The notes under the pieces are model-generated. The model ran no database searches and had not been told where the DNA came from. It saw only the letters and a program-made list of their open reading frames with translations. The position numbers were made by a program, and so were the translations under genes. Positions 4,923-7,848 of a DNA stretch of 64,000 nucleotides are shown here, in pieces; the stretch's first letter is position 1, and each line of letters opens with the position of its first letter. This DNA is from Peptococcaceae bacterium (GTDB lineage: Bacteria; Bacillota; Dehalobacteriia; UBA4068; JAAVYR01). Where the stretch lies: assembly GCA_022791255.1 (NCBI GenBank), contig JAAVYR010000014.1, positions 62,001 through 126,000 on the forward strand, written 5' to 3'.

Positions 4923-4951
4923 TTGCTTTTAGCCCATAGGAAAGTTATAAT
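4923..4951 (+). promoter_or_regulatory. Sigma-A promoter of the corA leader transcript
   Basis: TTGCTT (4923-4928) and TATAAT (4946-4951) are 17 bases apart. Transcription would begin near 4958 and give a 5' leader of about 135 bases before the corA ATG. Confidence 0.75.
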
Positions 4952-4994
4952 AAATCTAAGAGTATCATACTTATTTTTTATGGAGGTGACCATA

Positions 4995-5048
4995 GTGGAG
5001 GCTGACCCTAAATATCATATAAGAAATTTTTTTGCATTACAAAAATAA
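4995..5048 (+). CDS. Putative 17-residue leader peptide upstream of corA
   Basis: GGAGGTGA (4982-4989) is 5 bases before GTG, which opens a frame encoding MEADPKYHIRNFFALQK and stops at TAA 5046-5048. It is too short for the ORF track. Two in-frame upstream starts (ATG 4980, GTG 4986) lack a Shine-Dalgarno. The acidic-proline N-terminus resembles the enterobacterial MgtL leader, whose early Glu/Asp-Pro codons destabilise ribosomes when Mg2+ is low. The stop codon directly touches the first arm of the hairpins that control access to the corA ribosome-binding site. Translation of this frame is inferred from the strong Shine-Dalgarno. A regulatory role is inferred from the layout. Confidence 0.55.
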   Translation: MEADPKYHIRNFFALQK

Positions 5049-5093
5049 GGGGAAACCACCACAGGACTTTCCCCAGAAGAAAGGGGAAAGATT
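5049..5093 (+). promoter_or_regulatory. Mutually exclusive hairpins controlling the corA ribosome-binding site
   Basis: There are three segments: 1 = GGGGAAA (5049-5055), 2 = CTTTCCCC (5067-5074), 3 = GGGGAAAG (5083-5090). Segments 1:2 can form 7 pairs and segments 2:3 can form 8 pairs. They cannot form together. Segment 3 is the Shine-Dalgarno of corA (ATG at 5094). Pairing 2:3 would block translation and pairing 1:2 would free it. A ribosome terminating on the leader peptide stop would cover segment 1. Confidence 0.6.
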
Positions 5094-6026
5094 ATGCTCA
5101 CCATCTATCAGACAACAGCTACAGACGATATTGCAGCTATTTCTACCATCGAAAAAGGCTGCTGGATTAATCTCATCAACCCTACCGAAGCAGAAATCGC
5201 CTATATCGCCCAAAGCACCGAGATTGCTACCGACTTCTTAAAATATCCTTTGGACGATGAAGAAATTTCCCGTGTAGAAGTAGAAGAAGAACAAACCATG
5301 ATTATCGTCAATGTGCCAGTAGAACGGGACGCTGATGTCAACTATGACACTATTCCATTAGGCATTGTTTTAAACGACGACTATATTATCACCGTCTGCT
5401 TAGAAGATATTAAGCTGGAAAATGATTTTGTCAAAACCCGCGTCAAGGGCATGACCACTTACAAGAAAACCCGGTTTATCCTGCAGCTGCTGCAGAAAAA
5501 GACTAATTTATACTTAAAATATCTGCGGGAAATCAACCGTCATACAGAAGATATCGAGCGAGAGCTGCACCGCTCCATGCGCAACCAGGAATTAAGCCAT
5601 TTGCTGAACATCCAAAAAAGCTTGGTATACTTCATCACCTCCCTCCGCGCTAATGAAAAGGTAATGCAGCGACTTCTCCGCGGCAAGGCATTAAAACTCT
5701 ATGAGGAAGATGAAGACCTATTAGAAGATGTATTAATCGAAAACCATCAGGCAATCGAGATGGCGGATATTTACAGCAACATTTCTACCGGCACCATGAA
5801 TGCCTTCGCTTCCATCATTTCTAATAATCTCAGCATCGTTATGAAGCTACTAGCCGGCATCACCATTGTCATGTCCATCCCTACCATGATTGCCAGTTTC
5901 TTCGGCATGAATTTACTTGGCATTCCCTTTGCTGACCATCCTTACGGCTTTGCCATTATCTCAGGCATTGCAGTCATCGCCTGTTGCATCAGCATCATCA
6001 TCCTGATGAAAAAAGATATGTTATAA
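5094..6026 (+). CDS. corA: CorA family Mg2+ (divalent cation) channel
   Basis: The 310-residue protein has a long cytoplasmic helical N-terminal part and two C-terminal membrane segments. Between these lies the CorA signature GMN (FFGMNLLGIPF, about residue 270). The family forms pentameric channels that import Mg2+, and often Co2+ or Ni2+. The start has AGGGGAAAG a few bases upstream. It stands alone, divergent from spoVG, with its own promoter and terminator. The leader suggests control of translation by Mg2+ (see the leader entries). The family is certain; the ion preference is by analogy. Confidence 0.93.
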   Translation: MLTIYQTTATDDIAAISTIEKGCWINLINPTEAEIAYIAQSTEIATDFLKYPLDDEEISRVEVEEEQTMIIVNVPVERDADVNYDTIPLGIVLNDDYIITVCLEDIKLENDFVKTRVKGMTTYKKTRFILQLLQKKTNLYLKYLREINRHTEDIERELHRSMRNQELSHLLNIQKSLVYFITSLRANEKVMQRLLRGKALKLYEEDEDLLEDVLIENHQAIEMADIYSNISTGTMNAFASIISNNLSIVMKLLAGITIVMSIPTMIASFFGMNLLGIPFADHPYGFAIISGIAVIACCISIIILMKKDML

Positions 6027-6049
6027 AAACAACTTGATAAAAACAATAA

Positions 6050-6078
6050 ATGCCCAGCATTTCACGCTGGGCATTTTT
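6050..6078 (+). terminator. Rho-independent terminator after corA
   Basis: ATGCCCAGC and GCTGGGCAT form the stem, followed by TTTTTAT. It begins 24 bases after the corA stop. Confidence 0.88.
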
Positions 6079-6096
6079 ATATATGGTATTAATAGA

Positions 6097-7848
6097 TTAG
6101 TTGTAATAATAAATCATATAATAGGGCACATCATACCACAGTGCGTCTTTATCTTTGGGGCCGTTTTGCATCAGCGCCAAATAATAGTCTCCCTTTTCCA
6201 TAGTGCCATATAAAGTCTGCATACAGGAGTTATTGATTGTTTCAGCGTCACTAAGAGCGATGATATTTTCTTCGTCATCAATTAACATTAGCACTAAGTT
6301 TTTGGTAAACCAATCAGAACCACAAGTTAACCCCACCGCAATGTAAGTTTTTTCCGTTACAGAAATCCGAAACATATCTACATCATTCGGCGTATCAATA
6401 GCCCCAATCATCATTTCATCAGCCGGATACACATTGGCATTGCCTCGGGTATCATTGGGCTCCTGTTCATAGTAGTTGCCCTCTTCATCAGAGGATAAGG
6501 CCTCAAGATGATGCTCATTAAATAAATAGGCTAAGGACTCGCCATCTGTCAAAGGCACCTCTGCGATGTGATTAGCCGCCACCGCAAAACCAACATTTTT
6601 ATCATCTCGCAAACCGCTGGTAGTTACACCAATGACCTGTCCTCGTTCATTGAGTAGCGCACCACCAGAACTACCCGCCGCAATAGGCGCTGTCATCTGT
6701 AACATGACTTTTTTATTCACCAACTGGTGCCGATTGGTAACCAGCCCCTCTGTTAGGGTATTCATATGCCCCTTAGGGCTGCCCAGCGCATAAACTTTAT
6801 CGCCGTTTTCTACCAAATCAGAATTACCAATGGTCAAATAGGGCGTTTTTTTCGTGGTCTTAATTTGCAGGATAGCCAGGTCATTCTCTTCGTCGATACC
6901 CCAAACCACATCTACTGGATAAGTCTTGCCATTGGTCAGATGAACTTTAGCGCTATAAGCATTTTTTATCACATGGTAATTGGTCACAAAACGGCCGTCT
7001 TCTCCAATGAAGAAGCCGCTGCCCGTACCTAAAAGCACATCCTTTCGGTCGAATACTTCGATTAAGAAAACAGCTGGAGATGCTTTTTCATAAATCTCTC
7101 CGGCACTAAGCTGCAAAGAGCCGGCAGTAAGGTCTAGTTCTTTCTCAGCAAAGATAGCAAGCTGTTCGTCATTTTCTGCTGCAGCAAGGATTGCCTCCCC
7201 AGTGATAGCACCATCATTTAAATAAAGCTTCTTTAAAAGAGATATATCACTATCCTTCAATGTTACAAACAGAGCTTGATAAGAAAGATGCACACAATAA
7301 CCACGGGTTAAAAATTCCATAGACTGCAAACGATCATATTGTTCCTGAGTATATAATCCTACTTCCAGGCCCTTTTTTAAAGAAGCGTCATAGGTAAAGT
7401 CTTTCCCCTCGCCATCCTGATACCCCAAAGACCGCAATAGAAAGGTAACAAACTGACTAGGTGTTACACTCTCCCCAAAGCCAAATAAATCCTTTCCAAC
7501 GCCATTGGTTAAACGCTCTTGATACAAATAGCCCAGATAAGGGTCTGCCCAAGCCTGACTATCCCGGAAGGGATGACTGGCATTTATCTCTTTGGCTAAG
7601 TTTTCTTTCCCCAAAAGCCGCGTCAGCATCACAGAGCTTTCTGCACGGCTAGCAAGCCGGTGCAGCTCGTAGCCTCGCTCCGTCCCCAGAAAAAGCCCCA
7701 TGTTATTCAAAGTGTCCGCCTCTGCTAAATAACTAGGCTCAGCTGCAGCCCAAGCGCCTTGCGGCAACAAAAACAACAAAAACAAGACCAACAGCAAACA
7801 CCATATATTTTTACCCTGTTTATATTTCAAATGCACTACATATGCCAT
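6097..7848 (-). CDS. Secreted trypsin-like serine protease with N-terminal SLH-like and C-terminal PPC-like domain
   Basis: There is a signal peptide with a long leucine-rich core ending at AWAAA (about residue 36). Residues about 40-210 resemble SLH-like surface-attachment modules (ADTLNNMGLFLGTERGYEL). A trypsin-fold protease of the DegP/HtrA type follows, with histidine in TNYHVI, aspartate in ENDLAIL and serine in AAGSSGGAL. Then EQEPNDTRGNANVYP begins a bacterial pre-peptidase C-terminal type beta-sandwich. GAGGTGAT precedes the ATG. It probably acts at the cell surface. Substrate unknown. It stands alone between two terminators. Confidence 0.85.
   Translation of the reverse strand: MAYVVHLKYKQGKNIWCLLLVLFLLFLLPQGAWAAAEPSYLAEADTLNNMGLFLGTERGYELHRLASRAESSVMLTRLLGKENLAKEINASHPFRDSQAWADPYLGYLYQERLTNGVGKDLFGFGESVTPSQFVTFLLRSLGYQDGEGKDFTYDASLKKGLEVGLYTQEQYDRLQSMEFLTRGYCVHLSYQALFVTLKDSDISLLKKLYLNDGAITGEAILAAAENDEQLAIFAEKELDLTAGSLQLSAGEIYEKASPAVFLIEVFDRKDVLLGTGSGFFIGEDGRFVTNYHVIKNAYSAKVHLTNGKTYPVDVVWGIDEENDLAILQIKTTKKTPYLTIGNSDLVENGDKVYALGSPKGHMNTLTEGLVTNRHQLVNKKVMLQMTAPIAAGSSGGALLNERGQVIGVTTSGLRDDKNVGFAVAANHIAEVPLTDGESLAYLFNEHHLEALSSDEEGNYYEQEPNDTRGNANVYPADEMMIGAIDTPNDVDMFRISVTEKTYIAVGLTCGSDWFTKNLVLMLIDDEENIIALSDAETINNSCMQTLYGTMEKGDYYLALMQNGPKDKDALWYDVPYYMIYYYN

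Follow-up and report, generated by a model that had tools for sequence, protein, structure and literature searches.

A putative Mg2+-responsive leader-peptide attenuator upstream of corA in a Peptococcaceae bacterium, and similar acidic-proline leaders ahead of Mg2+ importer genes in Firmicutes

Several described systems couple a small open reading frame or a leader RNA to Mg2+ import. In Salmonella and E. coli, the short ORF mgtL precedes the Mg2+ importer gene mgtA (PMC11282234, PMC11552253). The EPDP motif of MgtL destabilises ribosomes, with E2 and D4 shown to matter (PMC11282234); efficient leader translation represses and early ribosome loss induces, through mutually exclusive RNA folds. 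The gene controlled in these enterobacteria encodes a P-type ATPase and the output is Rho-dependent termination. corA of the same organisms carries its own leader ORF, corL; the more corL is translated, the less corA is expressed, and abolished leader initiation in E. coli is reported to raise corA translation at high Mg2+ (PMC11552253). CorL acts through Rho, and its N-terminal region has just one Pro and is poor in acidic residues. The M-box (ykoK) riboswitch (RF00380) is an aptamer RNA that binds Mg2+ and controls the transporter families considered here with an importer-type sign. Downstream of the M. tuberculosis pe20 M-box lies a conserved small ORF with a conserved N-terminal Pro, uORF2/Rv1805A, which is Mycobacteria-specific, has its Pro at position 7 and is itself controlled by the riboswitch; neither an acidic leader nor a function as attenuator is reported for it (PMC12810186). 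M-box-regulated mgtE-nramp operons of Clostridia are described as Mg2+ transport loci (NrmT; PMC4072509), and a term search of that paper gave no leader peptide. A literature search, mainly of open-access texts, found mgtL, corL and the mycobacterial M-box uORF and no Firmicutes leader of the kind reported below, in agreement with the first-pass annotation, which knew of no described Firmicutes system of such design.

The corA leader region of the window, i.e., the whole 64-kb stretch of Peptococcaceae DNA analysed, comprises the following features.

4923..4951, + strand: probable sigma-70 promoter, tentative (TTGCTT at 4923-4928, 17-nt spacer, TATAAT at 4946-4951)
4982..4989, + strand: Shine-Dalgarno (SD) sequence of the leader ORF, GGAGGTGA, 5 nt 5' of the GTG
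4995..5048, + strand: leader ORF (GTG start at 4995, 17 sense codons V(M)EADPKYHIRNFFALQK, TAA at 5046-5048)
5049..5055, + strand: segment 1, GGGGAAA, anti-sequestor arm, starting right behind the leader TAA
5067..5074, + strand: segment 2, CTTTCCCC, partner of segment 1 (7 bp) or segment 3 (8 bp)
5083..5090, + strand: segment 3, GGGGAAAG, holding the corA ribosome-binding site (RBS)
5094..6026, + strand: corA, CorA-family Mg2+ transporter (ATG at 5094, 310 aa, PF01544)
6048..6076: terminator-like hairpin, bidirectional, separating corA from a convergent trypsin-like gene

The leader frame, its SD and segments 1-3 are all present where the first-pass annotation had placed them, as read from the sequence and from a repeat search that recovered both inverted repeats, 1:2 and 2:3; the start codon, taken there as ATG (MEADP), is actually GTG (VEADP). 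The promoter is plausible and its TTGCTT/TATAAT elements are also found in congener L003, but the -35 box has 3/6 matches and the score falls below the promoter-scan threshold. A strong SD like GGAGGTGA stands ahead of most leaders in relatives. An Rfam scan of the window returned zero matches. The convergent gene (6097-7848, - strand) encodes a trypsin-like protease (PF13365) whose N-terminal region is long, and the terminator is common to it and corA.

The start of mgtL, M-E-x-D-P, has the same pattern as the VEADP leader; the similarity concerns the start only, and no homology between the leaders is claimed. Both leaders combine a short ORF before a Mg2+ importer gene with mutually exclusive RNA folds. 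They differ in output, which is RBS hiding here (in some relatives maybe an intrinsic terminator), in the genes controlled, here corA, mgtE and nrmT, and in the frequent tandem with an M-box. With corA downstream and an RBS-hiding helix, the region would work like mgtL and is not classed as mgtL.

By analogy with that system and from the arrangement of the sequence elements, the region is probably a Mg2+-responsive leader-peptide attenuator that joins MgtL-like early drop-off (or stalling) to RBS hiding, with corA ON at low Mg2+. A ribosome would initiate on the leader at the strong SD, and codons 2-5 (Glu-Ala-Asp-Pro) would render early elongation fragile, the acidic-Pro N-terminus being the putative Mg2+-sensitive portion of the peptide. 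With ample Mg2+ the ribosome would get to the TAA and cover segment 1, so that 2:3 pairs and the corA RBS is buried (OFF). At low Mg2+ it would drop off or stall near codon 5, leaving segment 1 free to capture segment 2 first, and the corA RBS would stay open (ON). Mg2+-dependent drop-off is presumed here from mgtL, where the consequences of early ribosome loss were shown; the effect of the ribosome on leader RNA folding is deduced from geometry, and the presumed sign of regulation agrees with that of the M-box found in tandem in relatives.

The geometry rests on segment 1, which lies directly behind the stop here and within the last part of the leader in most members of the order; in both arrangements it would be masked by a ribosome that translates the leader to its end, and left exposed by one that is lost near codon 5. 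The alternative-stem score of the window was equalled in 0.5% of dinucleotide shuffles (p=0.005), and those of two congeners in 0/1000 (p<0.001 each). The proposed alternative pairing, 1:2 versus 2:3 with segment 3 as the corA RBS, is kept in congeners and exceeds chance. Alternative helices of differing sequence occur in many members of the order, including L005, L014 (AGGAGGUUAA / UUAACCUCCU / AGGAGGUUAA), L015, L016, L018, L021 (GGGAGCG / CGCUUCC / GGAGGCG), L024 and L031 (CAGGGGGCGGCC / GGCUGCCUCCUG / AGGAGG). Across the 68 loci scored, alternative stems reached p<=0.05 in 26, a descriptive figure given that the loci are related; many of the leader loci among them had no significant alternative stems under no-bulge scoring, and in most NrmT loci the RBS-hiding switch was not found. 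Naked RNA is predicted to favour the 2:3 (OFF) fold here, with a probability of about 0 that the corA SD is unpaired, and the ON state would therefore need 1:2 to form first during transcription, or other factors. Equilibrium accessibility of the SD gave no clean split between ON and OFF states and is not counted as support. When the entire leader is folded to minimum free energy (z -3.26), its SD pairs with the region around the corA start; this fold was set aside because relatives with other corA starts cannot pair in this way, as judged by eye.

Between leader and corA, loci L042, L055 and L158 carry an intrinsic terminator (hairpin and T-run) whose 5' arm is, by eye, complementary to the leader end. 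These terminators are possibly the transcriptional form of the RBS-hiding attenuator, which suggests that attenuator platforms are exchangeable. In L017, the 139 nt between leader stop and corA hold two GGGGACATTCC...GTGTCCCC copies, resembling a small inserted repeat.

Conservation of the acidic-Pro leader frame in relatives, a check proposed with the first-pass annotation, was examined with a motif-blind procedure that took, for each of 133 distinct corA loci, the short ORF with the best SD in the 300 nt upstream, and the frame proved to be kept both in congeners and more widely. Such an SD-led ORF was present in 85/133 loci against 16.2 in shuffles; 77 of the 85 leaders have Asp/Glu at residue 2 (1.5 in shuffles), 57 fit M[DE]xxP (0.1 in shuffles) and 69% have Pro5, the loci being related rather than independent, so that summed p values overstate significance. 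Examples include VDGSPSSDYHL, MEAGPSCEYRR, MDSDPADSR, VEGDPGSIYRI and MDDPEADL, as well as MDADPGEKRI (Acetobacterium) and MGDGPYSS (Caloramator). About one third of the 133 loci had no acidic-Pro-type leader by the motif-blind scan, and scans found no acidic leader in the Gottfriedia/Bacillus corA relatives (L043-L051, L058, L075) or in several Lachnospiraceae corA loci. In 35 genomes of the order, the pattern containing a GACCC-type core falls upstream of corA, and the remaining hits of the loose pattern appear to be fortuitous.

Across three congeners, residues 1-9 (VEADPKYHI) are identical, with synonymous changes only (GCT/GCG/GCA, CCT/CCG, CAT/CAC), and every change in codons 10-15 is nonsynonymous, the C-terminus drifting. 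The synonymous-only changes point to selection acting on the N-terminus of the leader peptide. All four Pro codons are in use at position 5. Codon choice is skewed elsewhere in the corA leaders L002-L229 and the mgtE/nrmT leaders L260-L267 counted together: AGT makes up 65/81 Ser codons (0.80) at positions 6-9 against 0.16 in corA, and GAC 0.78 of Asp codons near the leader start against 0.33. This bias may reflect a codon- or mRNA-level constraint added to that on the peptide.

corA itself is a confident family member, scoring 201 bits against PF01544 (cut-off 27, E 3e-59) with a GMN motif in its translation; it reaches 124.7 bits with the CorA equivalog model TIGR00383, under the cut-off of 200.75. 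Its presumed substrate, Mg2+, is assigned by family only, and the M-box association of relatives supports the assignment. The gene is single-copy and encodes the sole CorA of the 1.56 Mb genome, in which no MgtE, no Nramp and no P-type Mg2+ ATPase/MgtA above cut-off were found; corA is thus the genome's only recognisable Mg2+ importer. The RF00380 covariance model at its gathering score matched neither the window nor the whole genome, so that the leader stands here without the M-box that accompanies it elsewhere.

A relative with a 70% identical CorA has an M-box immediately upstream of the leader, and the RF00380 M-box, leader and corA stand in tandem in many other relatives. A phylum-wide DNA pattern search was used to find leaders ahead of other genes, and the MgtE and Nramp-operon genes were confirmed by Pfam for representatives. 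Leaders precede mgtE in L265-L267 (VDPDPWSSIRTF, VDPDPGSRIKK, MDPDPGSSIKN) and PRC/MgtE_N/CBS-Nramp (NrmT-type) operons in L260-L264 (MDSGPS, MDAGPS, MDAGPE), the latter related to the M-box operons of PMC4072509. Seven of these eight loci have an M-box match; the eighth, L266, is cut at a contig end. Conversely, motif-blind leaders were found in 28/68 M-box downstream regions against 1.7 in shuffles, with D/E at residue 2 in 23 of the 28 against 0.13. Leaders lacking Pro tend to be richer in acidic residues (MESDDDY, MESEEGDYY, MEYDDWD), which fits conservation of acidic/Pro fragility rather than of a fixed peptide, and counts of D/E/P composition are partly circular in that leaders were chosen by motif. 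Among the loci examined, the leader is restricted to Mg2+ transporter genes. The genomic associations strongly support a Mg2+ linkage of the leader class, and the M-box association together with the two further Mg2+ transporter families makes Mg2+, the signal proposed by the first-pass annotation, the likely one. In L271 and L282 an M-box lies upstream of a gene starting MPVFVRPDLPKKRHSGWIDLFVLIAIVGLF, which may be another Mg2+-related gene.

The distance between leader and gene varies among relatives, and this variation bears on a different reading, in which ribosomes translating the leader open the RBS hairpin and are passed on to corA, so that efficient translation means ON. Such translational coupling would suit L005, L016, L019, L023, L078 and L082, where 12-17 nt separate the leader stop from the corA start, and the NrmT loci L261 and L262, where it abuts or overlaps the downstream start; more broadly, L260-L264 (Nramp operons), L154, L016, L019 and L078 have a stop that touches or overlaps the start or is no more than about 36 nt away from it, and several relatives have a leader that extends across segment 1 to end beside or overlapping that start. 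At the closest-spaced loci, the leader-gene link is likely to differ from that in the window, and for NrmT and close-stop corA loci coupling or occlusion is possibly permitted as well. In the window, however, the stop is 45 nt from the corA ATG, upstream of the entire hairpin, and both here and in congeners there is a segment 1, for which simple coupling has no use. Coupling would moreover shut down an importer when Mg2+ is low, the reverse of what the tandem M-box does, and for the present locus we regard it as unlikely. We give slightly less credence still to a signal other than Mg2+, whereby early trouble at Pro/Asp/Ser codons would report tRNA charging, EF-P or general ribosome stress. A stall at codons 2-6 would equal drop-off in its effect on segment 1, and the preponderance of AGT among the Ser codons at positions 6-9 hints at a codon-speed element; yet the leader was seen alongside M-boxes and three families of Mg2+ transporter genes, not with amino-acid genes, and acidic residues can stand in for Pro.

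The conserved N-terminus could also belong to a small protein that acts on the transporter in trans, and small Mg2+-related proteins do exist in enterobacteria. Only the first residues are conserved, however: length (11-38 aa) and the remainder of the sequence vary freely, even within a genus, and like N-termini stand ahead of non-homologous transporters, which makes this explanation very improbable. Neither short ORFs nor repeats of 7-8 bp are unusual, and several other chance repeats occur in the same stretch, but a chance ORF with chance hairpins is contradicted by the shuffle tests and by conservation and deserves hardly any weight. The Mg2+-responsive attenuator with RBS hiding remains the preferred reading for the window.

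Beyond the single locus, the leader upstream of Mg2+ importer genes in many Firmicutes is probably a widespread, undescribed Mg2+ sensor. On balance, the comparisons lean towards an unnamed Bacillota-wide class, recognisable by its acidic/Pro N-terminus and by codons 6-9 being rich in AGU, which would control CorA, MgtE and NrmT importers by way of platforms that can replace one another (RBS hiding, intrinsic terminator or occlusion), frequently in a two-sensor tandem with the M-box and alone in some lineages, including the present one. If this is right, the M-box and leader tandem becomes testable, more than 100 natural leader sequences become available for learning what destabilises ribosomes at low Mg2+, and many uncharacterised transporters gain a regulator and a substrate hint. 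Mg2+ sensing by early ribosome fragility would then have arisen or spread independently across Firmicutes, joined to the M-box.
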